DNA of 64,000 nt, from contig CAMRHE010000054.1 in the NCBI GenBank assembly GCA_947044405.1, positions 5,285,501-5,349,500 on the forward strand, in the 5' to 3' direction. The position numbers and the translations under genes are program-made. Each line of letters starts with the position of its first letter. Position 1 is the stretch's first letter. This document shows, one piece after another, positions 36,646-41,832 of the stretch. A model generated the notes under the pieces. The model saw nothing but the letters and a program-made list of their open reading frames with translations, was not told where the DNA came from and did not search any database. The DNA is from Leptodactylus fallax. Taxonomy: Eukaryota; Chordata; Amphibia; Anura; Leptodactylidae.

Positions 36646-37115
36646 TGTGAGTATGTGAGCTAGAGGGCGCTGTTGAGCGACCCAGGCCCAGCCCTGAAAA
36701 AGCTCTCTGCCACGCCAGGAGATGGTGGACCCACCTGGACAGATAGACAGTCTGTGCCAGAAGTGCTCGGGTCTACAGGGGACTGTTGCTGGAGCTGAGC
36801 AATAGTCAGGACCAGCGAGGACAGAGAGAGAGGCTCTGTCCAAGAGGGTTGGATCCAGAGAGGACTTACAGAGACTAAGTCAAGCTCTTATTGCCCCCAG
36901 AGGCTAGTTAGGGACTCAAGGAGTGAGTTAGGCCCTAACTGTGGCATAGGTTTTTTTGTTGTTTTGTTATGTTGCAGTTAAGCTGAATAAAGCCACGTTT
37001 TATTTTACACTTGGACCGTCTGAAAGCTAACTTTCCGGCGCCCAGTACCACGAACCACCACTGTCCGGACCAGGACAAGCCGCCATTTTGAGTTTAATTC
37101 CCCCATGCTGTCACA
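36646..37115 (+). repeat. 5' LTR (470 bp)
   Basis: By eye it differs from the 3' LTR at about 11 positions over roughly 465 aligned bases, plus a 49-bp deletion near 36715 (after CACGCC). A polyadenylation signal AATAAA lies at 36986-36991. Promoter elements were not identified. Confidence 0.93.
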
Positions 37116-37117
37116 TA

Positions 37118-37135
37118 TGGTGGAGAATCGCGCGC
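37118..37135 (+). promoter_or_regulatory. Primer binding site-like sequence
   Basis: TGGTGGAGAATCGCGCGC begins two bases after the 5' LTR. The TGG start complements the CCA end common to tRNAs. The tRNA species was not identified. Confidence 0.65.
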
Positions 37136-37492
37136 ATAAAGAGATCCACGCAAGTCCTGGAAGACAAGTGGTTGGTGACTGCAGTACTGCAAAGTGTGCA
37201 TTGTGGCCTACAGCTGGAAGAAATCTGTGATTTCAACTGAAGAAACCCAGGAGGGGGTGAGTGAATTGCAACATAGCAATGTGTATAGAAGCTGGATATT
37301 GCAAACAAGTGTATGTGAAAGGCTATGGTGCCATGTTGGTGTTTTCTGTGGAAGACAGAAGAAAATGCTGGTTGTTGTAGTGCCACATAAGTTAACTGTT
37401 TGAATACATGTGACTGCAGAAGATAGCAAAAAGTTGCTGCCGGTTGAACCCCAAGGTTGCTGTGGAATATTGCGTAATCTTGTTAGTAAACC

Positions 37493-39832
37493 ATGGGCAA
37501 GAAAAAGAGAATTTCAGCTTGTAAAAAAGCTGAGAAGTTATGCACAGGTTTATTAGTGCAGCAGTCTGAATGCAGAGAGACACAAAACCCGGAACAGATC
37601 ATGTAGAATGCAAGTAAAGATAATGTGTTGCATGAGAGTGACTCAGTTTTTCTAAAGCACCTCTGTTCTATGAAAGAATATGTCACTGCTGACTCTATGT
37701 CTATGACTATGACTATGTCTCATACTGGAGTGCATCAGAGCGCCAAAGATGAAAATATTATGGTGCAGCAGCTTCAAGATGAGATTAAAACCATCAGGTT
37801 CATTTATGAAGATGAAATATCTGATTGGAAATGGCAACTTGAGGTATCAGAAAAAGAGAACCTTAAGTTAAAGAAAGAGCTTGAAACTGTAAAGAGTTCA
37901 TATCCTAGTCATTGTGAAAATGTGGTACTGGGTTTGCCTGGAATGGACTGTGTCACTAAGAAGGAGTTTGCTGATATGAAATGTGCTCTAGCTAATAAAG
38001 TTGTACAGAGTGTAGAGCAAAAGCAAGTGCTTGAGAAGCAATTGCAGGATTTAAAGGAGCAGCATGTCCAAGACTCCAGTGCTAAAGAGTGTATCATTGA
38101 AAAACTAAGAGATGACCTTGAAACTGCTAAACGTGAGAGAAGTGAATTTTTGCAGTATCAGTCAGAGTGTCTGGATGACCAAGTGAGGAAGTGTGAAAAA
38201 CTTTCGGCTGCATTAATTAAGAAAGAAAATGAAATTGCAGAGCTGAGGAAGCATGTGTCTGACCAAGAGAGTGATTTAGAATCTGTAGTGCAGACATTGC
38301 AGTCAGAGCAAAATTTGCATGCACTAAAGCAGGTTCGCCTAAATAGTGAAATCCATGAATGGCAAAGTAGAGCTGGAGTTCTGGAACAAAGAGAAAGGGA
38401 ACTCAAAGCTAGAATATGCAGCCTGGAGAGGGCGCTGTCAGGATCTTGTGAAGATAAAGAGAAATTGTCTGTTTTGGTGCAAAATAAAGACAAAGAGTTG
38501 ATGGAGATGTCGTCTGTCCATGCTCAGAAAGTGCAAGCCTTACAGGAGAGTCACAAAAAAGTAGAGACTCAACTTCAAGGGCTGCAACTAAAAGTCACAG
38601 AAGGGGACAGGTTGCAAGCAGAACTGCTAGACAAGGCAAATGGACTGCAGGTGGAATTGGATAATGTCACAAGGCTTCTTTCTCAAGCAGACAGCAAGTT
38701 TATCAAACTTTTAAAAGATTTCTCTACACTAGAATCTCAGCTTCAGGACACTCAGGAACTTTTGCAAGAAGAAACCCGTCAGAAGCTTGACCTTAGTACA
38801 AAACTAAAACAAATGGAAGATGAGAAAAATGGTTTCCTTGAGCAACTAGAGGAAGAGGAGATAGCAAAAAGAGATTTGACAAAGCAGATTTCAACACTAC
38901 AGGCTCAGGCGACTGATATGAAGAAAAAAATGGAGGATAGTATTGGGTCCTTGGACTCTGTTGAAGAACTAAAGGAAAAGTTGCAAAAGGAGCTAGAAGT
39001 TACAAATCAACGGTTTGAGGAGAAGGTTGCTGCTTATGACAAACTTGAGAAGAAGAAAATTAGACTGCAGCAGGAACTAGAAGATGTAGGTGTAGATCTT
39101 GATCATCAACATCGGATTGTGTCAAATTTGAAAAGGAAGCAGGAAAAGTTTGATCAGCTGCTTGGGGAAGAGAAGGCTCTTTCTGCTAGATATGCAGAAG
39201 AACGTGACCGTGCTGAAGCAGAGGCTTGTGGAAAAGAGACCAAAGCTCTTGCCTTGGATCGCTCCCTAGAAGAGGCCCTTGAATTGAAGGCCGAGTTAGA
39301 GAGGCTCAACAAGCAACTGCGCACTGAAATGGAGAATTTGGTTAGCTCCAAGGATGAAGTTGAGAAAAACCTGGAATCTGTGCAGATATTGTATGAGAAC
39401 AAAGTTAATGCTTATGAGATGCTGGAAAAGGCCAAGAGAGAATTGGACCTCCAGAGAGAAGACATGAGGATTCAGTTTGAAGGAAACCTGTCTAATTTAT
39501 CTGCTGAGATTGTAGATCTAAAAATGCTTGTTGCTAAATTAAGGGTGCAAGTGAACAAGCAGGAGGAATTCAAGAAACAGCTGGAGTTTCAGATGAATCA
39601 AGTGAAGCGTGAATCAGAAATAAAGTTGGAAGAGCGCACTTTTCAGATTGAACAGTTAAAAACCGAAGTGGAATCTAAAAAAGAAGAATTGGATCGATTG
39701 CAGCAGTCTTTATCCAATACGGAACAGTTGGCATCTGCACTATCTTCAAAGCTGGCAGCACTAGAAGATGAGAGAGACTCGCTGCAGAGCCTGTTAACCT
39801 CTAAAGAATCAGAGTTGTTATCCCTGAAATAG
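37493..39832 (+). CDS. Coiled-coil protein with myosin-II-tail-like segment, first frame
   Basis: The best start is the ATG at 37493 in strong context (ACCATGG), opening MGKKKRISACKKAEKL. A single in-frame TAG at 37604 interrupts; the same frame then stays open to 39832. Residues are numbered from the codon at 37625. The whole product is predicted coiled coil. Residues 312-582 (38558-39370) strongly resemble the tail of non-muscle myosin II heavy chain, MYH9-type: LESQLQDTQELLQEETRQKL, EEKVAAYDKLEK, VDLDHQ, YAEERDRAEAEA, KAELERLNKQLRTEME, SSKDEV. Residues 54-95 and 258-300 loosely resemble intermediate-filament or lamin rod, which could be convergence. Residues after 583 are unassigned coiled coil. 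There is no motor domain. The frame ends at a TAG 39830-39832, where the next frame (shifted by -1) takes over with a 28-nt overlap. Confidence 0.85.
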
Positions 39833-41226: not shown

Positions 41227-41300
41227 GCATATTTGGTTGAAGAGGGACTTCGTCATAGGATGTCTCGTCCCATTGTAGCTCACCCCATGGGTAGTGAGCT

Positions 41301-41311
41301 GAGGGGGAGGG
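41301..41311 (+). promoter_or_regulatory. Polypurine tract before the 3' LTR
   Basis: GAGGGGGAGGG lies two bases before the LTR start, where the plus-strand primer of an LTR element is expected. Confidence 0.75.
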
Positions 41312-41313
41312 TA

Positions 41314-41832
41314 TGTGAGTATGTGAGCCAGAGGGCGCTGTTGAGCGACCCAGGTCCAGCCCTGAAAAGGCTCTCAGCCATGCCTTTGAGGGGGGCGTGT
41401 AACTCCAGTAGTCTGGAGTATCCTGCAGGGAGCAGGAGATGGTGGACCCACCTGGACAGATAGACGGTCTGTGCCAGAAGTGCTCGGGTCTACAGGGGAC
41501 TGTTGCTGGAGCTGAGCAATAGTCAGGACCAGCGAGGACAGAGAGAGAGGCTCTGTCCAAGAGGGCTGGATCCAGAGAGGACTTACAGAGACTAAGTCAA
41601 GCTCTTATTGCCCCCAGAGGCTAGTTAGGGACTCAAGGAGTGAGTTAGGCCCTAACTGTGGCATAGGTTTTTTTGTTGTTTTGTTATGTTGCAGTTAAGC
41701 TGAATAAAGCCACATTTTATTTTACACTTGGACCGTCTGAAAGCTATCTTTCCGGCGCCCAGTACCACGAACCACCGCTGTCCGGACCAGGACAAGCCGC
41801 CATTTTGAGTTTAATTCCCCCAAGCTGTCACA
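41314..41832 (+). repeat. 3' LTR (519 bp)
   Basis: It carries the 49 bp missing from the 5' copy (about 41383-41432) and AATAAA at 41703-41708. The last bases GCTGTCACA are followed by the CTGG duplication. Confidence 0.93.

Follow-up and report, generated by a model that had tools for sequence, protein, structure and literature searches.

An LTR-flanked element of the frog Leptodactylus fallax with a coding interior that appears to join pieces of at least four host genes

A stretch of 64,000 nucleotides from Leptodactylus fallax (assembly GCA_947044405.1, contig CAMRHE010000054.1, positions 5,285,501 to 5,349,500 of the forward strand; hereafter the window) contains, at window positions 36646-41832, an element flanked by long terminal repeats (LTRs) whose interior carries coding pieces of several host genes strung together. 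The locus raises the question of how such an element came by its cargo and whether the coding frame was maintained afterward. By comparison with frog proteins, its two open reading frames (ORFs) are a chimera combining pieces of MYH9, HIP1, Velo1, and HNRNPU, at least four frog genes in all. We consider it probable that this is a non-autonomous LTR element in which at least four host genes were fused via template switching, and which would move with the enzymes of an autonomous relative. A preliminary description had already proposed a non-autonomous element that took up and fused portions of at least two host mRNAs, and our analysis supports that proposal, although the donors had been undercounted: Velo1 and HNRNPU have to be added.

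The LTR-flanked element is real. Matching LTRs, a CTGG duplication, and a polypurine tract are all present, as had been reported. The 5' LTR (36646-37115, plus strand, 470 bp; sequence and repeat comparison) has TG...CA ends and an AATAAA at 36986-36991, and the 3' LTR (41314-41832, plus strand) measures 519 bp by repeat and alignment comparison. Direct reading of the sequence placed the two unstranded copies of the CTGG target-site duplication at 36642-36645 and 41833-41836, and the polypurine tract, GAGGGGGAGGG, at 41301-41311 on the plus strand. The interval thus has what characterizes an LTR retrotransposon, namely two direct LTRs with TG...CA, a target-site duplication, and a polypurine tract beside the 3' LTR, the run gagggggaggg ending 2 bases upstream of it. 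The primer-site-like sequence of the preliminary description stands as far as a putative primer-binding-site-like stretch goes (37118-37135, plus strand), read from the sequence 2 bases past the 5' LTR and recognized from its TGG start; no tRNA genes were found in the window.

Between the two LTRs, 459 of 470 aligned sites are identical and 11 differ, giving a K80 distance of 0.024. Furthermore, 49 bp present in the 3' LTR at 41384-41432, where the exact gap borders are ambiguous, are absent from the 5' LTR; one LTR has likely changed after insertion because both are made from one template. With the anuran substitution rates of 1-3e-9 per site per year given in the accessible part of PMC12822217, the LTR distance would correspond to an insertion age of about 4-12 million years. 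A second copy of the LTR or of the interior was not found within the window.

Instead of the single plus-strand frame of about 1,240 codons described previously, the coding stretch comprises 37 + 741 + 473 codons separated by two breaks. It starts with 37 codons (37493-37603, plus strand), with the ATG within ACCATGG, and meets an in-frame stop at 37604-37606. ORF1 remains open for 741 codons (37607-39829), and ORF2 for 473 codons in another frame (39805-41223), up to a terminal stop read from the sequence at 41224-41226 (plus strand). The second interruption is therefore the frame change near 39805-39829. Broken at two places, the present copy is likely dead. Each frame was searched on its own and not as part of a merged sequence. 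The Pfam scan of the two ORFs, outside which lie the short leader and the 3' stretch, gave no match to gag or pol families at E<=0.1, so no gag family competes there with the myosin and HIP1 matches. Convergence of a gag protein on such sequences was also rejected since the donors match at E-values down to 1e-101.

The strongest donor match is the tail of non-muscle myosin II. The MYH9 piece (38543-39385, plus strand; host residues 1244-1524), noticed already in the preliminary description, matched a solved myosin-9 structure at E=1.4e-101 and is identical to the Phyllobates protein at 225 of 281 residues without a gap. In the host gene, 281 MYH9 residues should span several exons, a point that bears on whether the donor was a spliced, intronless mRNA. 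The MYH9-HIP1 join (39386-39592, plus strand) is ill-defined and shows weak myosin-like similarity, and the match to PF16515, the clathrin-binding domain of HIP1 (E=2.5e-14 in ORF1), begins within it at 39530. HIP1 piece a follows at 39593-39829 (plus strand), with 67 of 79 residues identical to Ranitomeya HIP1, and terminates at the stop and change of frame; the earlier recognition of HIP1-type sequence was thus correct. The HIP1 pieces b, c, and d lie in the second frame (39805-40122, plus strand); between them, some 110 host residues are absent at one point and some 16-17 at another. Next comes a probable second, more upstream MYH9 piece (40123-40266, plus strand; host residues 1085-1132), identical to Phyllobates at 22 and to Lithobates at 24 of 48 residues, with an alignment score of 104 as opposed to a maximum of 59 in 200 shuffles.

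Two further donors occupy the rest of ORF2. The Velo1/Bucky ball piece (40279-40764, plus strand) is identical to Leptodactylus fuscus Velo1 at 126 of 165 residues with three gap columns, and its host residues 124-288 of 766 include neither end of the protein. In the accessible text of PMC9624338, XVelo is described as prion-like at its N-terminus and as basic and RNA-binding at its C-terminus, with residue borders not stated there. The HNRNPU piece (40771-41082, plus strand; host residues 283-386) shares 84 of 104 residues with L. fuscus and carries a partial SPRY domain (PF00622, positions 20-98 of 121 matched). The frame finishes with a basic tail (41071-41208, plus strand) consisting of an in-frame tandem duplication of two 69-bp (23-codon) units, which are identical at 58 of 69 bases and differ at 11. 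Against seven donor proteins, the basic tail scored no better than shuffles. The order of pieces is accordingly MYH9, HIP1, (probable) MYH9, Velo1, HNRNPU, and basic tail.

No donor was found for the open N-terminal region of ORF1 (37607-38542, plus strand). ORF1 residues 1-300 found no protein at E<=0.001 among 7989 scored candidates with lengths 0.55-1.75 of the query, and the N-terminal region had no match among 189 retrieved proteins. Residues 111-300 aligned with MYH9 at a score that 2 of 200 shuffles reached, and with two HIP1 proteins at scores reached by 3 and 28 of 200 shuffles, respectively; such above-shuffle pairwise scores may arise by chance in coiled coils. The comparison with lamins suggested earlier found no support in searches of solved structures, and a lamin-like N-terminus was rejected since the best PDB match of the region, at E=0.2, is not a lamin.

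Was the frame kept open before the insertion? The six donor pieces (715 codons) contain no stops, whereas neutral simulations to the observed divergence, which were started from the element's own sequence with inputs including 36 changes in 162 for Velo1 and 26 in 48 for the second MYH9 piece, gave a mean of 8.95 stops and reached zero in none of 3000 runs. With the divergence lowered to 80% of that observed, the mean was 7.2 (zero in 3 of 3000 runs), at 60% it was 5.35 (13 of 3000), and without the probable second MYH9 piece it was 7.5 (1 of 3000). The frame was thus likely kept open because the donor pieces lack stops where about 7-9 are expected under neutrality. The weight of this count is lessened by its design, as the donor pieces were sought inside open frames, a choice that in itself accounts for some of the lack of stops and of the agreement in frame. 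A simulation of the whole stretch, which allows for the two breaks and is spared the open-frame bias, is hence fairer. At 1.2% mutation, corresponding to the decay since insertion, it produced a mean of 2.2 new stops, so the two observed breaks fit post-insertion decay. At 6% the mean rose to 10.3 stops, and no more than two arose in 0.25% of 800 runs; at 9% and 12% it was 15 and 19, and none of 800 runs stayed that low. In a manual count subject to the caution about open frames, the reading frame is preserved at 7 of the 8 joins or indels for which the host frame is known. Selection likely kept the frame open before insertion.

What such selection might have kept is suggested by the heptad pattern. 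The MYH9 piece has a heptad score of 0.522, close to the 0.553 of the host, whereas the host piece with 56 random changes had a mean of 0.440 and reached 0.522 in 9 of 500 controls, in which replacements were drawn from the composition of the piece and not made as codon mutations. A heptad signal was also found in HIP1 piece a (z 5.3) and in ORF1 residues 110-306 (z 4.1), and is absent from the Velo1 and HNRNPU pieces. On these scores, the coiled coil of the MYH9 piece may have been kept. The basic units have 0.13 nonsynonymous (dN) as opposed to 0.42 synonymous (dS) substitutions per site, based on 11 changes in 69 bp, which are too few for proof.

Several observations weigh against preservation of a protein. 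Changes fell equally on host-invariant and host-variable columns in MYH9 (48/206 and 32/124), Velo1 (12/61 and 28/104), and HNRNPU (11/52 and 13/56), with Fisher p-values of 0.69, 0.35, and 0.82 for the three genes. This column test used MAFFT alignments over slightly wider stretches (identities 125/165 for Velo1, 84/108 for HNRNPU, and 250/330 for MYH9), from which non-frog sequences had been dropped. Nor were the changes clearly more conservative than neutral ones, since 11%, 14%, and 25% of 400 simulations were equally or more conservative. Heptad a/d positions changed less, but not significantly so (16/89 versus 59/224, p 0.14), and no heptad signal was detected in HIP1 pieces b-d or the second MYH9 piece. 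The HNRNPU/SPRY piece of the element was not predicted to fold, with a mean predicted local distance difference test (pLDDT) value of 37.9. The same stretch within full-length host HNRNPU, at similar alignment depth, had pLDDT values of 82-95 in 9 of 11 blocks and 59-62 in two, a control that does not separate the effect of truncation from that of substitutions. Retention of the donors' own functions was not supported, given that changes are equal at invariant and variable host columns.

Trees of three genes bear on where the cargo came from. The element groups with hyloid frogs in the Velo1 (100/98, bootstrap/Shimodaira-Hasegawa-like approximate likelihood ratio test), HNRNPU (99/96), and MYH9 core (97/92) trees. 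For Velo1 (95/76) and HNRNPU (93/80), it is placed with moderate support as sister to Leptodactylus fuscus; no protein named Leptodactylus occurred among the MYH9 matches listed. Family membership was looked up for Leptodactylus and Engystomops, and some of the sequences used carry no species name. The trees included 25 of 69 matches for Velo1, 19 for HNRNPU, and 25 (first tree) or 27 (core tree) of the 120 listed for MYH9; one Pyxicephalus sequence and the remaining matches were omitted. The first MYH9 tree had poorly aligned flanks and an element branch of 0.87; in the tree restricted to the 281-residue core, the branch is still long at 0.57, compared with 0.3 for Velo1 and 0.4 for HNRNPU. 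As the element branches are long, its exact place is less sure. The trees point to capture in a hyloid frog, probably a leptodactylid.

The cargo also seems considerably older than the insertion. Neutral mutation to the observed protein divergence gave about 0.07-0.12 substitutions per site between cargo and host in the well-matched pieces, six to ten times the decay of 0.012 per site expected on this copy since insertion, and part of this divergence may be donor-side because the HIP1 and MYH9 references are not from Leptodactylus. This excess, together with the 11 differences in 69 bases between the tandem units, argues for many rounds of copying before insertion. Capture likely long preceded the insertion, and the cargo would have been copied many times beforehand.

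How might the element have arisen? We envisage that a reverse transcriptase switched templates repeatedly among co-packaged host mRNAs, with Gag and Pol supplied by an autonomous partner element. The capture could have occurred in the female germ line, as suggested by the germ-plasm gene Velo1, whose protein is described in the accessible part of PMC9624338 as the most abundant one in the Xenopus Balbiani body. The cargo-bearing element would then have been copied many times before the present insertion, with its frame held open and the residues required for the donors' functions not specially preserved. The most likely product would be a coiled-coil rod, made of the N-terminus without an assigned donor, MYH9, and HIP1, with a basic C-terminal tail, and this protein would have the RNA or the particles of the element itself as its target. 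A bolder version, in which a leptodactylid LTR family abandoned gag and pol and made a new gene out of at least four host mRNAs, Velo1 among them, with the encoded rod assembling in the oocyte, binding element RNA by its basic tail, and taking that RNA along with the germ plasm to the germ cells of the following generation, is at best a long shot. An unrelated Ty3-type pol with reverse transcriptase, RNase H, and integrase lies at window positions 3-2942 (plus strand; 980 codons, open from the window edge) and is followed from about 2960 by an apparent 3' LTR beginning TGTAAGAG. It was rejected as the partner, as its LTR has no similarity to that of the element.

The absence of stops could instead reflect selection at the RNA level, where RNAs with early stops are lost to nonsense-mediated decay and copies with a long frame persist regardless of the protein. 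We regard this as possible but doubtful. It would account for a frame without stops in which residue changes are neutral with regard to host conservation and chemistry, and for an SPRY piece that is not predicted to fold. However, 491 of 500 random-change controls preserve the MYH9 heptad less well than the element does, and the dN and dS of the basic units, few as their changes are, point the same way. Moreover, non-autonomous LTR elements are known to spread even when they lack a long frame. The data lean toward a rod with a basic tail over RNA-only selection against stops, without settling the matter. That the cargo was domesticated and served the frog, which kept the frame open, would fit a frame seemingly open for long, but the copy is broken twice and, with LTRs and target duplications on either side, looks like any other insertion, and we find domestication very unlikely.

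Other readings differ from the proposed non-autonomous element in the history they assume. Host mRNAs could have been stitched together in one accident of reverse transcription, inserted here as a single LTR-mediated retrocopy, and then decayed. Neither the viral contig collection, from which the window's own genome may be excluded, nor the annotated proteins scored yielded another copy; this fits a single retrocopy and speaks against an element that was copied many times. Such a mechanism is described for metazoans in the accessible part of PMC5408686. Nevertheless, the LTR distance of 0.024 stands against 0.07-0.12 substitutions per site in the cargo and 11 differences in 69 bases between the tandem units. 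The divergence of the cargo is not just post-insertion decay because the distance to the host would then about equal that between the LTRs, which makes a single retrocopy quite improbable. Alternatively, a chimeric host gene or retrogene might have existed first, and its one transcript was then captured by the LTR element; in favour of this, all pieces share a strand and most of them a frame. The search for an annotated fusion, which scored 7993 candidates of about 659-2098 aa, found none, the 120 listed of 3397 matches being myosin heavy chains with 42-53% query coverage, and the search with the N-terminal region gave no match. We thus judge a prior host chimera to be improbable as well.

Elsewhere in the window, tandem arrays are located at 13781-14989, 19013-19672, and 30690-31066, and the array at 30.7 kb has sequence in common with 5.3-6.3 kb and 13.7-15.0 kb. 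Fragments of Tc1/mariner-type transposases (HTH_Tnp_Tc3_2, DDE_3) occur on the minus strand at 25769-26359, 51141-51770, and 58895-59341.

Oncogene-transducing retroviruses carry pieces of host mRNAs fused in frame and are replication defective and dependent on helpers. They are exogenous and selected for tumour growth, whereas the element in L. fallax holds structural, oocyte, and nuclear genes within a genomic element. A close parallel is Bs1 of maize, an LTR element whose chimeric gene derives from three host genes according to the accessible parts of PMC13317346 and PMC5408686, and also described as carrying different host genes (PMC7264820). As far as these sources extend, both elements captured pieces of several host genes and made them into one chimeric gene. 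Bs1, however, resides in a plant and its donors are a proton ATPase, a xylan endohydrolase, and a beta-1,3-glucanase, while at least four donors contributed here, in an animal.

Among vertebrates, endogenous retroviruses (ERVs) of crocodilians have captured KIT-ligand or nectin3, the nectin3 copy being about 76% identical to the host protein, with purifying selection reported in the accessible part of PMC4299795. Judging from the same text, these are likewise vertebrate LTR elements with host mRNA coding sequence diverged from the host gene, but they hold one gene each. KIT-ligand was added without loss of an ERV domain and nectin3 replaces env, whereas here both ORFs are a multi-gene fusion. 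Metazoan LTR-mediated retroposition involves template switching between LTR-element RNA and cellular mRNA in the particle and, unlike the present case, yields retrocopies that often cover just a section of a single parental mRNA, as the available portion of PMC5408686 has it. That ERVs and LTR elements occasionally transduce host genes, in animals as well as in plants, is noted in the part of PMC6431247 that is accessible. An element with this cargo was not named in the literature searched, whose coverage most subscription papers fall outside. In the print sources found, as far as their accessible parts tell, vertebrate LTR gene captures comprise one gene per element, whereas by our sequence comparisons at least four donors replace the element's own genes here. 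Should further copies bear this out, animals could gain new multi-domain genes when reverse transcription switches templates, the origin of such genes could be dated by comparison with the donors, and the presence of Velo1 would suggest that capture took place in the oocyte.

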